IMG/VR virus record: IMGVR_UViG_3300005664_000051
Location: 1 to 28,558 of that record
Source: a virus
Reading direction: 5' to 3' (one strand)
DNA length: 28,558 nt
This document shows positions 4,671-15,561 of the stretch, piece by piece. A program made the translations under genes and the position numbers. The notes beneath the pieces were generated by a model, which saw nothing but the letters and a program-made list of their open reading frames with translations, did no database searches and had not been told where the DNA came from. Every line of letters starts with the position of its first letter. The first letter of the stretch is position 1.

Positions 4671-7397
4671 GTGGATAATGAACTTTCAGTTGATGAATTA
4701 ATGGCACCTGACATTGAGGAGTACATTGAGAATGAAGACGGCTCAGTGGAAATCCCAATTGAAGGTGCCGAGAAGGTCGACACAGGCTTCCTCGACAACC
4801 TCGCTGAAGTGTTCGATGACCACGAACTCAACGTCATTAGCTCCGAGCTTATTGAGCTCGTAGAGCTTGACAAGAAGTCACGCGAAAAGAGGGATGCGCA
4901 ATATGAAGAAGGCCTTCGTAGAACTGGTCTCGGCGATGATGCACCGGGCGGAGCCGAGTTTGACGGCGCTAGCAAAGTGGTACATCCAGTTCTGGCCGAA
5001 GCCTGTGTGGATTTCTCCTCGCGTGCAATAAAGGAGCTCTTCCCCGCCTCCGGCCCAGTCAAGCCCTGGGTGGTTGGCGACACGACACCGAAGAAGCTTG
5101 AAAAGGCCAATCGTAAGTCGCGTTACATGAATTGGCAGCTCACGACGCAGATCCAAGAGTATCGGGCCGAGTTGGAGCAACTGCTCACTCAACTCCCAAT
5201 GGGCGGATCGCAGTACCAGAAATTCTGGCGCGATGATCGCAAGCGCAGAATCTGCAATGAGTTTGTGCCGATCGATGAAATCTTCCTCCCATACAGCGCA
5301 ACGAATTTCTATACAAGTCCTCGGGTTACACACCGCCAGTCCATCACGCGCATGGAGTTCAATCGCCGTGTGCGAAGCGGTCTCTATCGTGACGTCTTCA
5401 TTACAGACACCAACCACGCACCCGAAGAGTCAAAGGCCTCCAAAGCTAATGACAAAATTGAAGGTCGCGAGGAGGATGGATACAACGAGGACGGACTCCG
5501 CGCGGTTCTGGAAATATACTGCTGGTTAGAAACCGAAGCTGACGACATTACGGGGGGTGAGTATGCGCCGTACATCATCACTATTGACGAGGACACTGAG
5601 AAAGTTCTGTCTATATACCGTAACTGGGCAGAGTCTGATGATCGCTTTGAGAAGCTGGACTGGATCGTCGAGTGGAAGTTTATCCCATGGCGGGGTGCTT
5701 ACGCTATCGGTCTACCTCACCTCATCGGCGGTCTCAGTGCGGCTCTTACAGGCGCTCTGCGGGCACTTCTAGATTCGGCGCACATCAACAACGCTCCGAC
5801 CATGCTCAAACTCAAGAGCGGTCGGATTGTTGGTCAGAACACGCAAGTCAACGTCACGCAGGTTTGTGATATTGAAGGCCCGGCCGGCATCGATGATATT
5901 CGCAAGCTCGCCATGGGCATGCCATTCAATCCGCCGAGCCCAGTGCTTGCCGGTCTGATGGACAAGCTGTATGCGCTAGCTAAGGGCGTTATCGCTACAG
6001 CCGAAGACAAGATGGACCAGGTTGGCGATCGTACGCCAGTTGGTACCACGCAGTCTATCATAGAGCAGGGTTCCGCGACCTACTCCGCTATCCACGCACG
6101 CCTGCATGAATCACAGAAGAAAGCGCTGTCCATCATTCACCGCCTGAATGGCGAGTTCATTGAAGATGGTCAGATGCCGGAAGAGCTGGGCGAGATTCCA
6201 GTTCTGCAGGAAGATTTCAAAGGCACGATGGATGTCGTACCAGTCTCCGATCCAACGATCTTCTCCGAGACACAACGTTTTGCGCAAAACCAAGCTATCA
6301 TGCAGATGGCCCAGATGGACGCGCAAAACCCGCACATCCCCTGGAATCAAGTCAATGTGCGTCGTCGCATGCTCAAACAGATGCGCATCGAGAATATCGA
6401 TGAACTGCTGCCTGCGCCCAAAGAGCCAGTCACTGCCGACATCCTCACTGAGAATGCACAGTCGCTGCAAGGCACCCCACTGAAGGCGTCCGAGGAGCAG
6501 AATCACCTGGCCCACATCCAGGGTCACATGGCGTTCATCGAGTCGCCAATGCAACTGGTCAATCCGCTTGTACCACCGCAGGCACTGATGGGCTTATTCC
6601 AGCACGTCGGCGAGCACATGCAAATGTATGTCACGCAGGTGACTAAGGAAGAGATGGTTCGTCTTTCGCAAGAGATGTTCGGTGCCGACGAGGACTCCAT
6701 CATTGCTCAAGCCACGCAAGCAGCAGCCATGCGCGTATCCAGTGAAATGGCAGAGCTGATGGACAAGGTAGCAGGCCTGCAGCAACAGATTCAAAGCCGC
6801 ATGCCGAAACCACAGCTTCCGCCAGAAGTCCAAGCTTCCATCGAAATCGCCAAGATGGACATCCAGCGCAAGACGCAGATGGACCAAGCGACATTGCAAA
6901 GCAAGCAAGCTGAGCAGCAAGCTAAGCAGCAGTATGAACAGGCTAAGCTCCAGATGGAAGGCGCAGCGGCACAGTTTGAGCAGCAGATGACTCAGGCGCA
7001 GCAAGCCTTTGATAATCAGCTTGAGCAAGTACGCGTACAAGCTGAAGTTCAATCCGACCAGCTCCGTGCACGCGTCGAACTGATGGCGAATGAGCAGGAC
7101 AACCATCAAAAGCAGATGACAGAGCTGTTGAAGAATCGCGATGACAATGAGACCAAGATTGCCATTGAGCAAATGTCGCAGCAGCTGAGCGCCATGAGCC
7201 AACAAACACCGCCGGAGCAAGTAGACATCACCCCGCACCTACAAGAGTTGAACCAAACCCTGTCACAGATGGGCAAGGATCAAACCAGCAACGCGCTTGG
7301 TGAAGTGATGAACGGCCTGCGTGCTACGATTGAAACGCTCAACAAACCTAAGACTATTATTCGTGATGCGCAAGGCAAAGCACAGGGGATTCAATAA
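4671..7397 (+). CDS. Portal protein
   Basis: 908 aa, starting at GTG with an AAAGGA site upstream. The portal is the dodecameric ring at the packaging vertex through which DNA enters and leaves. Portal-type features are SKVVHPVLAEACVDF, the acidic N-terminal region, VPIDEIFLPYSATNF, the WKFIPWRGAYAIGLPHLIGG segment (about 332-350) and MGMPFNPPSPVL. The C-terminal third (about 690-860) is a long Gln/Met/Ala-rich coiled coil with many Q-Q pairs, probably an extended barrel or crown region. Total length is at the long end for portals, as in podoviruses with large barrels. The endolysin gene overlaps its stop by one base (TAATG). Confidence 0.92.
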   Translation: MDNELSVDELMAPDIEEYIENEDGSVEIPIEGAEKVDTGFLDNLAEVFDDHELNVISSELIELVELDKKSREKRDAQYEEGLRRTGLGDDAPGGAEFDGASKVVHPVLAEACVDFSSRAIKELFPASGPVKPWVVGDTTPKKLEKANRKSRYMNWQLTTQIQEYRAELEQLLTQLPMGGSQYQKFWRDDRKRRICNEFVPIDEIFLPYSATNFYTSPRVTHRQSITRMEFNRRVRSGLYRDVFITDTNHAPEESKASKANDKIEGREEDGYNEDGLRAVLEIYCWLETEADDITGGEYAPYIITIDEDTEKVLSIYRNWAESDDRFEKLDWIVEWKFIPWRGAYAIGLPHLIGGLSAALTGALRALLDSAHINNAPTMLKLKSGRIVGQNTQVNVTQVCDIEGPAGIDDIRKLAMGMPFNPPSPVLAGLMDKLYALAKGVIATAEDKMDQVGDRTPVGTTQSIIEQGSATYSAIHARLHESQKKALSIIHRLNGEFIEDGQMPEELGEIPVLQEDFKGTMDVVPVSDPTIFSETQRFAQNQAIMQMAQMDAQNPHIPWNQVNVRRRMLKQMRIENIDELLPAPKEPVTADILTENAQSLQGTPLKASEEQNHLAHIQGHMAFIESPMQLVNPLVPPQALMGLFQHVGEHMQMYVTQVTKEEMVRLSQEMFGADEDSIIAQATQAAAMRVSSEMAELMDKVAGLQQQIQSRMPKPQLPPEVQASIEIAKMDIQRKTQMDQATLQSKQAEQQAKQQYEQAKLQMEGAAAQFEQQMTQAQQAFDNQLEQVRVQAEVQSDQLRARVELMANEQDNHQKQMTELLKNRDDNETKIAIEQMSQQLSAMSQQTPPEQVDITPHLQELNQTLSQMGKDQTSNALGEVMNGLRATIETLNKPKTIIRDAQGKAQGIQ

Positions 7398-7813
7398 TGG
7401 CAAGTCGGCGTATCAGTGACTTAGAGCCAATTGTTCGCAAGAAGGCTGAGGCCTTTGAGGCAGCTTGTAAGGCTGAAGGTCTTGACATCCTTATCTACTG
7501 CACTTACCGTTCACCGGAGGAACAAGATGAGCTCTACGCACAAGGTCGCACCAAACCCGGGAACATTGTTACTAACGCTCGTGGCGGCCAATCTTTCCAT
7601 AACTTTCGCTGTGCATTCGACTTTGTTCCGCTTTTGGCTGGGAAGCCTCAATGGGGTGACAAGGCACTCTACCTTAAAGTAGGCATCGTTGCCGAGTCAG
7701 TTGGTCTTGAGTGGGCCGGCCGCTGGACTGGCAAGTTAAAAGAAACAGCACACTGCCAGTTCTCCAATGGGCTGTCACTGCGCGATCTGCAGCTTGGTAA
7801 AAAGGTGCAATGA
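7397..7813 (+). CDS. Endolysin, M15 family L-Ala-D-Glu type peptidase
   Basis: 138-aa cell-wall peptidase expected to cleave the peptidoglycan stem peptide at lysis. The M15 signature is visible: YRSPEEQDELYAQGR (37-51), a zinc-binding SFHNFRCAFDF (H68 and D75) and ETAH (E116 as likely catalytic base, H119 as third zinc ligand). The family norm is SxHxxGxAxD; here Gly is replaced by Arg and the Ala position by the Ala of CAFDF, a small deviation. There is no signal peptide, so release depends on a holin. It is translationally coupled to the portal upstream and to the next gene by ATGA. Confidence 0.9.
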   Translation: MASRRISDLEPIVRKKAEAFEAACKAEGLDILIYCTYRSPEEQDELYAQGRTKPGNIVTNARGGQSFHNFRCAFDFVPLLAGKPQWGDKALYLKVGIVAESVGLEWAGRWTGKLKETAHCQFSNGLSLRDLQLGKKVQ

Positions 7814-9666: not shown

Positions 9667-10145
9667 GTATCATAGCTGACTCGATTGCAAAAATAGGCGT
9701 AGGTTATGGCGTTAAAGCTGTAGCCTCGCTAGGCTTCCTCAGCCAGAAAGTGCAAGAGGGCCGGTCAGGGTACTGGCGCCTATTCTTTACGCAGTTACAG
9801 GAAGATGCATTAAAACCAAAGGAGGCTGAAAAGCAACCTGAAGCTTTCAAGGAGCCGTATACACTTGAGGAGCAATCCGATGGCTCTGTAGATGTGGTAT
9901 TTGGTAAAAAGCCTGTAAGCAAGGTCAGACCCGTAGAACAAGCACAAGAAACAAAAACACCAGTGCAGCGCCCCATTGTTGTGCCATTACAGGAAACTAC
10001 AATATTTGAAAGCGCTAGATTGGTGGCGCAGGTACAGTTAATGCTTGTGCAGTATGTAGGACATAACGTAGCACTGAAAAATAAAAAGGTGGTGGTAACT
10101 GATGATGAGGAGGAGGATATTGAGCTTCTTCTATTAGCGGCGTAG
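9663..10145 (+). CDS. Hypothetical protein with acidic C-terminus
   Basis: 160 aa, not recognised. The N-terminus is short and mildly hydrophobic (IGVGYGVKAVASLGFLS, about residues 11-27). The middle is rich in Pro, Lys, Glu and Gln (AEKQPEAFKEPYTLEEQ). Near the C-terminus, a VAQVQLMLVQYVGHNVAL segment is followed by VVVTDDEEEDIELLLLAA. The mixture suggests a partly disordered virion or assembly protein, but this is a guess. It starts by ATGA overlap and ends with TAG, so the portal/lysis operon ends here before the promoter-like site at 10146. Confidence 0.65.
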   Translation: MSIIADSIAKIGVGYGVKAVASLGFLSQKVQEGRSGYWRLFFTQLQEDALKPKEAEKQPEAFKEPYTLEEQSDGSVDVVFGKKPVSKVRPVEQAQETKTPVQRPIVVPLQETTIFESARLVAQVQLMLVQYVGHNVALKNKKVVVTDDEEEDIELLLLAA

Positions 10146-10200: not shown

Positions 10201-10362
10201 ATGGGTAAGTTGGCACAGAAACTGGGTGGTCAGAGTCAATCTCAAATCCAGTGTTTGAAAAAAGGCGGCATGGTTCATGACGATGCCAAACAAGACAAAG
10301 CAATGATTGCCAAAGAGCTGAAAGCTCGGGGCTTGAAGTGCAGTGGAAAGGTGAAGAAATAA
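10201..10362 (+). CDS. 53-aa basic KKGG phage protein
   Basis: A short, lysine-rich protein starting behind a near-perfect AGGAGG site. The core LKKGGMVHDDAKQDKAMI followed by KELKARGLK matches a family of roughly 50-aa proteins often found among phage head genes, with no proven function. The Gly-Gly-hydrophobic core resembles the tails of the GNAT, the interrupted protein and the ejection protein in this window. High charge and small size fit a DNA-associated or internal capsid component, but that is inference. The stop overlaps the next start (TAATG). Confidence 0.75.
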   Translation: MGKLAQKLGGQSQSQIQCLKKGGMVHDDAKQDKAMIAKELKARGLKCSGKVKK

Positions 10363-10592
10363 TGGCAAAGTTCGAAGTCACATATGCTGACGGCACCGTC
10401 AAGATTGAAGAACAGTCTGACTGCCACACGCTTGAGCAGTTCATCAACTGTCGTTTCGGTACTGGTGGTCTTCCTGACAAGATCGTGCACCTTGATGAAT
10501 TGACCGACGACGCTGGCGAAGAAGTCAAGCCGGTCGAAGAAGTCAAGCCGGTCGAAGAACACCATAAAGCGGCGCCCAAGAAGACAAAATGA
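10362..10592 (+). CDS. 76-aa hypothetical protein with duplicated EVKPVE tail
   Basis: The ATG at 10362 overlaps the preceding stop and is preferred over an upstream ATG at 10338 that lies inside the previous gene. The N-terminal part (about 1-50) looks like a compact alpha/beta fold starting MAKFEVTYADGTVKIEE. The C-terminus is low complexity, with EVKPVE encoded twice in tandem, then His, Ala and Lys. No family is recognised. It is coupled by ATGA to the next gene. Confidence 0.7.
   Translation: MAKFEVTYADGTVKIEEQSDCHTLEQFINCRFGTGGLPDKIVHLDELTDDAGEEVKPVEEVKPVEEHHKAAPKKTK
10521..10556 (+). repeat. Tandem 18-bp duplication
   Basis: The unit GAAGTCAAGCCGGTCGAA occurs twice head to tail (10521-10538 and 10539-10556) without a mismatch, adding six residues in frame to the disordered tail of the 76-aa protein. 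Identical copies suggest a recent slippage event. Confidence 0.9.
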
Positions 10593-10786
10593 TCCCTGAT
10601 CGTTTTGTGGGAGCTTACGTTGGTGAGCTTAAAACGGCTATATCAGACCTAAAGGATGATATAGCTGTAACCAATTTCGGAACGCCAGAAGGTCCATACC
10701 ATGTTGGCATGCTTCAAGGGCGCGTAGCCGGCATGGAAAATGCCTTGCGTATTCTTGAGGGCATCTGCGAGAAGCAGGACGTCTAA
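10589..10786 (+). CDS. 65-aa helical hypothetical protein
   Basis: Starts by ATGA overlap with the 76-aa gene. The protein is predicted to be mainly helical: VGELKTAISDLKDDIA, then a loop with GTPEGPYHVGML, then GRVAGMENALRILEGICEK. Small proteins of this helix-loop-helix kind are common in phage head regions. I do not recognise a domain. It is the last gene before the structured leader at 10793-10859. Confidence 0.65.
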   Translation: MIPDRFVGAYVGELKTAISDLKDDIAVTNFGTPEGPYHVGMLQGRVAGMENALRILEGICEKQDV

Positions 10787-10792
10787 TTTAAA

Positions 10793-10859
10793 TCCACCTC
10801 ACTTTCCGACGGGAAAGGAAGCCAGTCTCCGGCTTCACGAGGTGGACCTTTACGGAGAC
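10793..10859 (+). promoter_or_regulatory. Predicted three-way-junction RNA with pseudoknot in the leader of the GroES-like gene
   Basis: In the 89-base gap between the stop at 10786 and the ATG at 10876, four perfect pairings are visible: an 8-bp closing stem TCCACCTC (10793-10800) with GAGGTGGA (10839-10846); hairpin 1 CTTTCC/GGAAAG (10802-10807, 10812-10817) with loop GACG; hairpin 2 GAAGCC/GGCTTC (10818-10823, 10831-10836) with loop AGTCTCC; and a possible pseudoknot between GTCTCC of that loop (10825-10830) and GGAGAC (10854-10859). The hairpins abut without a linker, which favours coaxial stacking. The element sits just before the Shine-Dalgarno sequence (10865-10869), so it could control translation or protect a 5' end. 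It is not one of the riboswitch or ribozyme classes whose cores I can recognise. Confidence 0.7.
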
Positions 10860-10875
10860 ATAATGGAGAATCGTC

Positions 10876-11283
10876 ATGATTCCAGCTTCAAAGTTAGAAG
10901 ATGCATTCCCGGAAATCAACCCGGGCGTTTATCCAAAAGGCGCGCGAGTAGTCGTCCAGCTCCGCACCGTGCGTACCATGACTGCCAGCGGTATCGCCCT
11001 TGTTGAAGACACGAAACAGTTCAACAAAGCCAATACGCAACTCGGCAAAGTCATCTTCCTAGGTCCGATCGCCTACTGCAATCGTGACACGGGTCAGCGC
11101 TGGCCCGAAGGTGTTTGGGTAAAGCCCGGTGATTACGTGCGCGTTCCTAAGTTCGGCGGCGATCGCTTCGAGCGCAAAATCCCAGGTACGTCCGACACCG
11201 CAATCTTCACCATCTTCAGCGACCACGAAATCATCGCGCAGGTCGACCCAGAAGTCTTTGAAGAACTGGACGACATCCTATGA
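10876..11283 (+). CDS. GroES-like (Cpn10-type) co-chaperonin
   Basis: 135 aa. The ATG at 10876 has GGAGA seven bases upstream; another ATG at 10863 is out of frame. GroES-like features are the start MIPASKLEDAFP, RVVVQLRTVRTMTASGIALV (the region that forms the mobile loop in GroES), LGKVIFLGP, WVKPGDYVRVPKFGG and a terminal FSDHEIIAQV. The family folds as a beta-barrel whose heptamer caps GroEL. Phage versions (T4 gp31 is the classic case) adapt the host chaperonin for coat folding. No GroEL gene is seen here. The location just ahead of scaffold and coat genes fits that job. It carries a structured leader. Confidence 0.82.
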   Translation: MIPASKLEDAFPEINPGVYPKGARVVVQLRTVRTMTASGIALVEDTKQFNKANTQLGKVIFLGPIAYCNRDTGQRWPEGVWVKPGDYVRVPKFGGDRFERKIPGTSDTAIFTIFSDHEIIAQVDPEVFEELDDIL

Positions 11284-14865: not shown

Positions 14866-15561
14866 ATGTCTATACCTATTGGAAAAGCTTGTAATGTTGT
14901 TTTTTGTAATGAACTTGTCATAGCGCAGGGTCTGTGTGCAAAACACTATAAGCAAATGCAAAGACATGGTGCACCGTCTAAAGATGTATCTGCAAAAACC
15001 ATAGATGGTAAGAAGCTGCTAGATCATCCGCTGTACGCAACCTGGCGGAGCATTTGTAGAGTAGCACGCGGAACTCGCGTATGCCTTGAATGGCAGGACT
15101 TTGAGCAGTTTGTAAAAGACGTCGGTATAAAGCCGTTGGGCGCAAAAAGCCTTAGGCGCATTGATACGTCAAAAGCATATTCTAAAGACAACGCTAGGTG
15201 GCATGTCTCGGATACACCAGACAATACTAAGTTGGCCGCACGTGAGCGTATGCACGATTTCTACGCCGCAAATCCAGAGTATGCTAGATGGTCATCAATA
15301 AAATCCAAGTACGGACTTACCCAGGCTGAGTACTTAGAGCTTGAAGCTGCGCAAAACGGCGTTTGTGCTATTTGTAAAAAACCAGAGAAACGCACTACTA
15401 AGTCTGGGGAGCGGATGAACTTGCATGTAGATCATTGCCACAATTCCAAGCAAGTACGCGGGTTGCTATGTCATTCATGTAATACAGCCTTAGGCTTATT
15501 GGGCGACGATGTTGAGCTCTTTAGAACCGCCATAAAGTATTTGGTATCGAAGAAACTGTAA
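14866..15561 (+). CDS. Endonuclease VII-type (HNH-like) mobile endonuclease
   Basis: 231 aa. The C-terminal half matches the recombination endonuclease VII family: YGLTQAEYLELEAAQNGVC (about 145-163), a zinc-type CAIC (163-166), then LHVDHCHNSKQVRGLLCHSC with a DH pair and the second CxxC, then NTALGLLGDD. The N-terminal half has another CxxxxC-type cluster (CNVVFCNE), QGLCAKHYKQMQRHG and RRIDTSKAYSKDNARW, typical of homing-type phage nucleases that bind DNA. Base composition is more AT-rich than the flanking capsid genes. It sits alone between two structural genes, as a mobile gene would. No ribosome site is visible; the terminator hairpin occupies that position. Confidence 0.87.
   Translation: MSIPIGKACNVVFCNELVIAQGLCAKHYKQMQRHGAPSKDVSAKTIDGKKLLDHPLYATWRSICRVARGTRVCLEWQDFEQFVKDVGIKPLGAKSLRRIDTSKAYSKDNARWHVSDTPDNTKLAARERMHDFYAANPEYARWSSIKSKYGLTQAEYLELEAAQNGVCAICKKPEKRTTKSGERMNLHVDHCHNSKQVRGLLCHSCNTALGLLGDDVELFRTAIKYLVSKKL

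Follow-up and report, generated by a model that had tools for sequence, protein, structure and literature searches.

What does an 89-nucleotide (nt) intergenic gap upstream of a phage co-chaperonin gene contain, and what might it do for that gene? The gap lies at positions 10787-10875 of a 28,558-base IMG/VR virus record (IMGVR_UViG_3300005664_000051), the whole of which was analyzed and is hereafter called the window. The original prediction placed in this gap a three-way junction with a pseudoknot between a hairpin loop and the 3′ flank, and the helix lengths and pseudoknot coordinates that it gave are confirmed. Specifically, a four-helix RNA spans positions 10793-10859, composed of P1 (8 base pairs, bp), P2 (6 bp), P3 (6 bp) and the pseudoknot PK (6 bp). 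To our knowledge, few phage leader pseudoknots are known. The features of the locus are as follows.

10589-10786, + strand: upstream open reading frame (ORF), 65 amino acids, function unassigned; its stop codon lies 6 nt 5′ of P1
10793-10800, + strand: P1 5′ strand, TCCACCTC, pairs with 10839-10846
10801, + strand: J12, an unpaired junction A, invariant in the alignment (9 of 9)
10802-10817, + strand: P2 hairpin, CTTTCC-GACG-GGAAAG, 6 bp formed by 10802-10807 and 10812-10817
10818-10836, + strand: P3 hairpin, GAAGCC-AGTCTCC-GGCTTC, abutting P2, 6 bp formed by 10818-10823 and 10831-10836
10825-10830, + strand: PK 5′ strand, GTCTCC, inside the P3 loop; all 6 PK pairs covary
10839-10846, + strand: P1 3′ strand, GAGGTGGA, pairs with 10793-10800 (8 bp)
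10854-10859, + strand: PK 3′ strand, GGAGAC, in the 3′ flank of P1, with its last base at -17 relative to the start codon
10865-10868, + strand: Shine-Dalgarno (SD) sequence GGAG of the GroES-like gene, outside the pseudoknot
10868-10882, + strand: weak hairpin, GAATC-GTCAT-GATTC, spanning the end of the SD and the start codon, without independent support
10876-11283, + strand: GroES-like co-chaperonin gene, 135 amino acids, identified by Pfam and PHROG

The downstream protein matches the Pfam family Cpn10 (PF00166; 30.7 bits, cutoff 21.1) and PHROG 3188, co-chaperonin GroES; the 65-residue upstream product has no match in Pfam or PHROG. The GroES-like gene sits in a stretch of head genes, with the portal gene on one side and the major capsid gene on the other. 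A tRNA search of the window leader found none. In their loop arithmetic, P3 and PK follow the classical H-type pseudoknot (6-bp stem, loop of 0-3 nt, 5-6-bp stem, 0-1 nt between stems), to which P1 and P2 add a side arm. The fold has a stability z-score of -3.26, with none of 200 dinucleotide shuffles equally stable, and when the leader is dinucleotide-shuffled, the full descriptor of a three-way junction plus loop-to-flank pseudoknot turns up in 2 of 20,000 sequences.

IMG/VR was scanned by protein and by DNA pattern, leaders were read and a covariance model was applied, which together brought to light eight further independent members (IMG/VR contigs L002, L010, L090, L091, L092, L094, L248 and L286). 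All nine members are diverged phages represented by uncultured contigs, and in each the element precedes an orthologous GroES-like gene. This holds even for L248, which was first found through an RNA pattern rather than through its protein. Neither L248 nor L286 was among the sequences used to build the covariance model, and they score 63.3 bits and 38.6 bits (E 4.8e-7), respectively. Whole-record searches reveal one clear copy per genome.

For the covariation alignment, segments of the nine sequences were registered by hand, and the linkers and one bulged L091 base were omitted. Of the 234 cells, 99.1% pair; shuffling the 3′ letters lowers this to 73.7%, and sliding them to 43-47%. Both sides change in 19 of the 26 pairs (5 of 8 in P1, 4 of 6 in P2, 4 of 6 in P3 and 6 of 6 in PK), and compensatory change maintains each of the four helices. 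The original prediction had staked its fold on base pairs that covary in homologous leaders, and these compensatory changes, together with the shuffles, indicate that the junction and its loop-to-3′-flank pseudoknot in the phage GroES-like leader are real. Because the PK strands had been picked by complementarity, we added a selection-free test, in which the longest complement of the P3 loop is sought in the whole 3′ flank. The result sums to 57 bp over the nine members; shuffled flanks give a mean of 37.1 bp and a maximum of 47 (0 of 2000 reach 57 bp), and permuting flanks between members reaches 57 bp once in 20,000 trials. RNAalifold, when given a MAFFT alignment and no structure, recovers P1, P2 and P3. 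On this comparative evidence, the structured RNA element is real and its fold is well established, yielding a compact RNA, tied to one gene, in which four helices including a pseudoknot are backed by compensatory change.

The 11 G·U cells on the + strand become A·C mismatches if read on the other strand, which favors an mRNA-sense RNA over a DNA element or an antisense RNA. A coding sequence was also considered and rejected, since the indels that distinguish members have lengths not divisible by three.

What is conserved in the alignment looks like shape rather than sequence. Constant positions cluster at the junction: the closing C-G pair of P1, the J12 A, the second P2 pair (U-A) and, in P3, the first pair (G-C) and the second (A-U). 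Among unpaired letters, conservation is limited to one A (9 of 9), an AC (7 of 9) and the GACG loop of P2 (7 of 9). Such shape-like conservation, with so few conserved unpaired positions, argues against a metabolite-binding pocket or a catalytic core. A small-molecule riboswitch would suit the 5′ leader position and the closeness of the pseudoknot to the ribosome binding site (RBS), and phages offer leader-RNA precedents in manA and wcaG (PMC2864571). However, the metabolite sensing suggested at the outset finds little to build on: the J12 A is the sole invariant unpaired position, a highly conserved unpaired pocket is lacking, and the nine members have no conserved alternative pairing. By contrast, nucleotides of the glutamine-II binding site are >97% conserved (PMC6698751). 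We therefore consider a riboswitch very improbable.

The same pattern bears on two other possibilities: that the element is cut out of the transcript as a phage RNA acting in trans or structurally, for example in the packaging motor, or that it is a ribozyme that cleaves itself. Its location among head genes, and directly after a tRNA in L248, would accord with such a role, and L286 gives a sub-threshold match to the HDV-like ribozyme drz-agam-1 (23.3 bits, cutoff 37). But this match occurs in L286 only and is absent from the other members scanned, the helix order is unlike the nested double pseudoknot of HDV, and a conserved catalytic core is missing. In addition, the element never occurs apart from the GroES RBS. 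The drz-agam-1 match was set aside, and a role of this kind seems improbable to us.

In scans against Rfam 15, no family reaches its gathering cutoff, in agreement with the original prediction, which recognized no known consensus. The element, previously uncatalogued, constitutes a new structured leader RNA family, although its general kind is known. EGFOA RNA (RF02955) aligns over P1, P2 and PK in L002 (15.4 bits, E 0.74, cutoff 37.7), and we treat this alignment as chance, as it is confined to L002 and is gone in a shorter query and in whole records. An EGFOA-like DNA pattern was found in four contigs, none of which has an Rfam match.

Three known RNAs invite closer comparison, and the element is assigned to none of them. 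The nearest functional precedent is the T4 gene 32 leader, a phage 5′ leader whose H-type pseudoknot, built of coaxial stems, lies upstream of the start codon and acts on translation of the next gene (PMC3014915). The phage element likewise places a pseudoknot in the 5′ leader of the gene downstream. However, the gene 32 pseudoknot is separated from the start codon by 67 nt that include an unstructured A/U tract (PMC3014915), whereas only 2-7 nt separate PK from the SD sequence, such that the pseudoknot abuts the RBS. Moreover, the gene 32 leader has no three-way junction and controls a single-stranded DNA-binding protein rather than a co-chaperonin. The nearest RNA by gene is Pseudomon-groES (RF01721; PMC2864571), a structured RNA candidate associated with groES that is found in Pseudomonas rather than in phages, and to which the phage element shows no Rfam match.

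By topology, the closest counterparts are the flaviviral exonuclease-resistant RNAs (xrRNAs), in which loop L3 of a three-way junction likewise base-pairs with letters 3′ of P1 (PMC5760640). This likeness, noted in the original prediction, holds for the loop-to-flank pairing but does not extend to membership. In xrRNAs the 5′ end pairs with the junction to form a ring, and our inspection of the nine leaders found no conserved complement for such pairs in the upstream letters or in J31. With this 5′-end threading contact absent, we reject membership. In addition, xrRNAs reside in flaviviral 3′ untranslated regions and the phage element in a 5′ leader of a bacterial DNA virus. Even so, the element provides a natural bacterial-virus junction with a loop-to-3′-flank pseudoknot that can be compared with nuclease-blocking RNAs of other viruses.

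In eight members P1 starts 0-6 nt past the upstream stop codon. In all nine, PK ends 12-17 nt 5′ of the GroES-like start codon and 2-7 nt 5′ of the SD sequence, a GGAG at -10 or -11. The leader gap in members is 81-91 nt, except that in L248 it measures 169 nt including a tRNA-Thr (UGU) gene (10069-10144). This gene separates the upstream ORF from the element, with 3 nt on the side of the stop codon and about 6 nt on the side of P1. The L248 element nevertheless stays with the GroES start, and thus it goes with the downstream gene. Among relatives that lack the element, the gap is at most 46 nt or the genes overlap, except for the hairpin-bearing L289 type described below.

We assign a probability of roughly one in two to the reading that the element is a cis-acting leader that sets expression of the co-chaperonin gene through ribosome loading. 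As comparison of the members shows, the + strand RNA folds into a three-way junction of P1, P2 and P3, with the P3 loop paired just 3′ of P1. The resulting rigid pseudoknot could be held at the 5′ edge of the RBS, or of the 30S footprint, where the folded block would set the efficiency of ribosome loading on the co-chaperonin cistron. That cistron would in this way be made independent of the abutting upstream gene and acquire its own dosage within the head-gene operon. The element might act constitutively or be read by a shape-recognizing protein rather than sense a metabolite, and this is the step we hold with least certainty.

Several observations count for the leader reading: the element precedes an orthologous gene in nine members, keeps a narrow spacing from PK to the start codon, is present in single copy and fills the gap, and to these are added the + strand G·U cells and the tRNA arrangement of L248. 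Others count against it. The SD sequence itself is outside the pseudoknot, no conserved alternative fold concealing it turned up in the nine members, and some sister phages are without the element. Furthermore, the narrow spacing could be explained by genome compaction alone. The weak hairpin over the SD sequence and start codon is found in all nine members, but in the window (-3.6 kcal/mol) it ranks ninth among 31 gene starts; because it is no stronger than at other window gene starts, we give it no weight.

Two more specific ways of coupling the fold to initiation were rejected. According to the original prediction, the pseudoknot could hide a decoy initiation site and steer ribosomes. The out-of-frame ATG at 10863 is indeed present, but only three of the nine members (the window, L091 and L094) carry it, and the steering model fails. 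Capture of the SD sequence by the P3 loop fares no better: TCTCC could pair with GGAGA of the SD in the window and L094, but the longest P3-loop complement is at the PK site in nine of nine members and never at the SD. In L286 this complement is the first of two tandem copies of CCAGAC, the PK 3′ strand (positions 2972-2984, CCAGACACCAGAC), making two alternative pseudoknots possible there.

The main rival to the leader reading is that the element serves the processing or stability of the mRNA at this joint of the operon, where its rigid fold would block exonucleases arriving from either side, or would shield the processed 5′ end of a transcript carrying the co-chaperonin and capsid genes. The start of P1 immediately past the upstream stop in eight members would suit this role, as would conservation of shape rather than sequence, and in L248 tRNA excision would put the fold at a new 5′ end. 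The pseudoknot between L3 and downstream letters is also common to flaviviral xrRNAs (PMC5760640), although the 5′-end-to-junction pairs of those RNAs have no conserved counterpart here and the upstream letters vary. Proximity to the RBS is not required of such an element. We regard this explanation as possible but doubtful.

Alternatively, a phage or host protein might bind the junction and make the element a protein-responsive translational operator, which would be a special case of the leader reading with a regulator added. The concentration of constant positions at the junction is consistent with this proposal. Against it, no candidate binder emerged, and GroES-like proteins are not known to bind RNA. 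Phage precedent exists in T4 gp32, which binds a pseudoknot 5′ of its own start codon (PMC3014915), but the nine leaders have no conserved unstructured A/U tract of the gene 32 kind. An operator of this type is, in our judgment, unlikely. We also entertain, quite tentatively, a new form of expression control in which the rigid three-way-junction pseudoknot, through its shape alone or by binding a phage protein, would adjust the supply of co-chaperonin to capsid production as infection proceeds. How a phage doses its own co-chaperonin relative to capsid protein becomes directly testable with this element.

A GroES tree groups the nine carriers with nine non-carriers at strong support (100/99), but carriers are not a single clade within this group, and several sister phages are without the element. 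Given this distribution, the simplest reading, which is not proved, is an ancestral element that was lost or remodeled in the L095/L096 group, L097 and L098/L289. Covariance-model searches of GroES loci and whole records found no members beyond the nine, and direct inspection of the leaders of L003, L004, L006 and L007 did not find the element. An RNA-pattern match in L174 was judged to be chance. Isolate phages gave no leader match, and bacterial genomes gave neither a GroES relative nor a convincing RNA (best 16.5 bits). The true spread may be wider than the nine IMG/VR members.

L098/L289 is sister to the carrier L090 (97/92) in the GroES tree. In L289 (2928-3000), and also in L098, L290, L304 and L305, an 11-bp hairpin lies where carriers have the element, with a weak possible 4-bp loop-to-flank pairing. 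This hairpin is perhaps a remodeled, simpler version of the element. In the element-less L095, L096, L303, L110 and L308, a short hairpin (for example AACTCT-GAAGG-AGAGTT) often contains or adjoins the SD sequence. These simple hairpins hint that the GroES-like start may be under structural control in several lineages.

By capsid protein, the nearest isolates are Caulobacter phages RW, GB2A, RLK and KcrB (64% identity). Pelagibacter phage HTVC023P shares the gene order of small ORF, GroES and capsid, and its GroES gene overlaps the preceding ORF, leaving no leader gap. Immediately 3′ of the major capsid gene, the window carries a recombination endonuclease VII-like gene (14866-15561; PF02945, 81 bits); an ORF of similar appearance occupies the matching place in L002 (8529-9239), and a homing endonuclease is annotated in Caulobacter phage GB2A. 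Elsewhere in the window, positions 7397-7813 encode a VanY/peptidase M15 family protein, likely a cell-wall endopeptidase, and a short in-frame tandem repeat (EEVKPV twice) occupies 10520-10560, close to the end of an ORF that spans 10338-10592.
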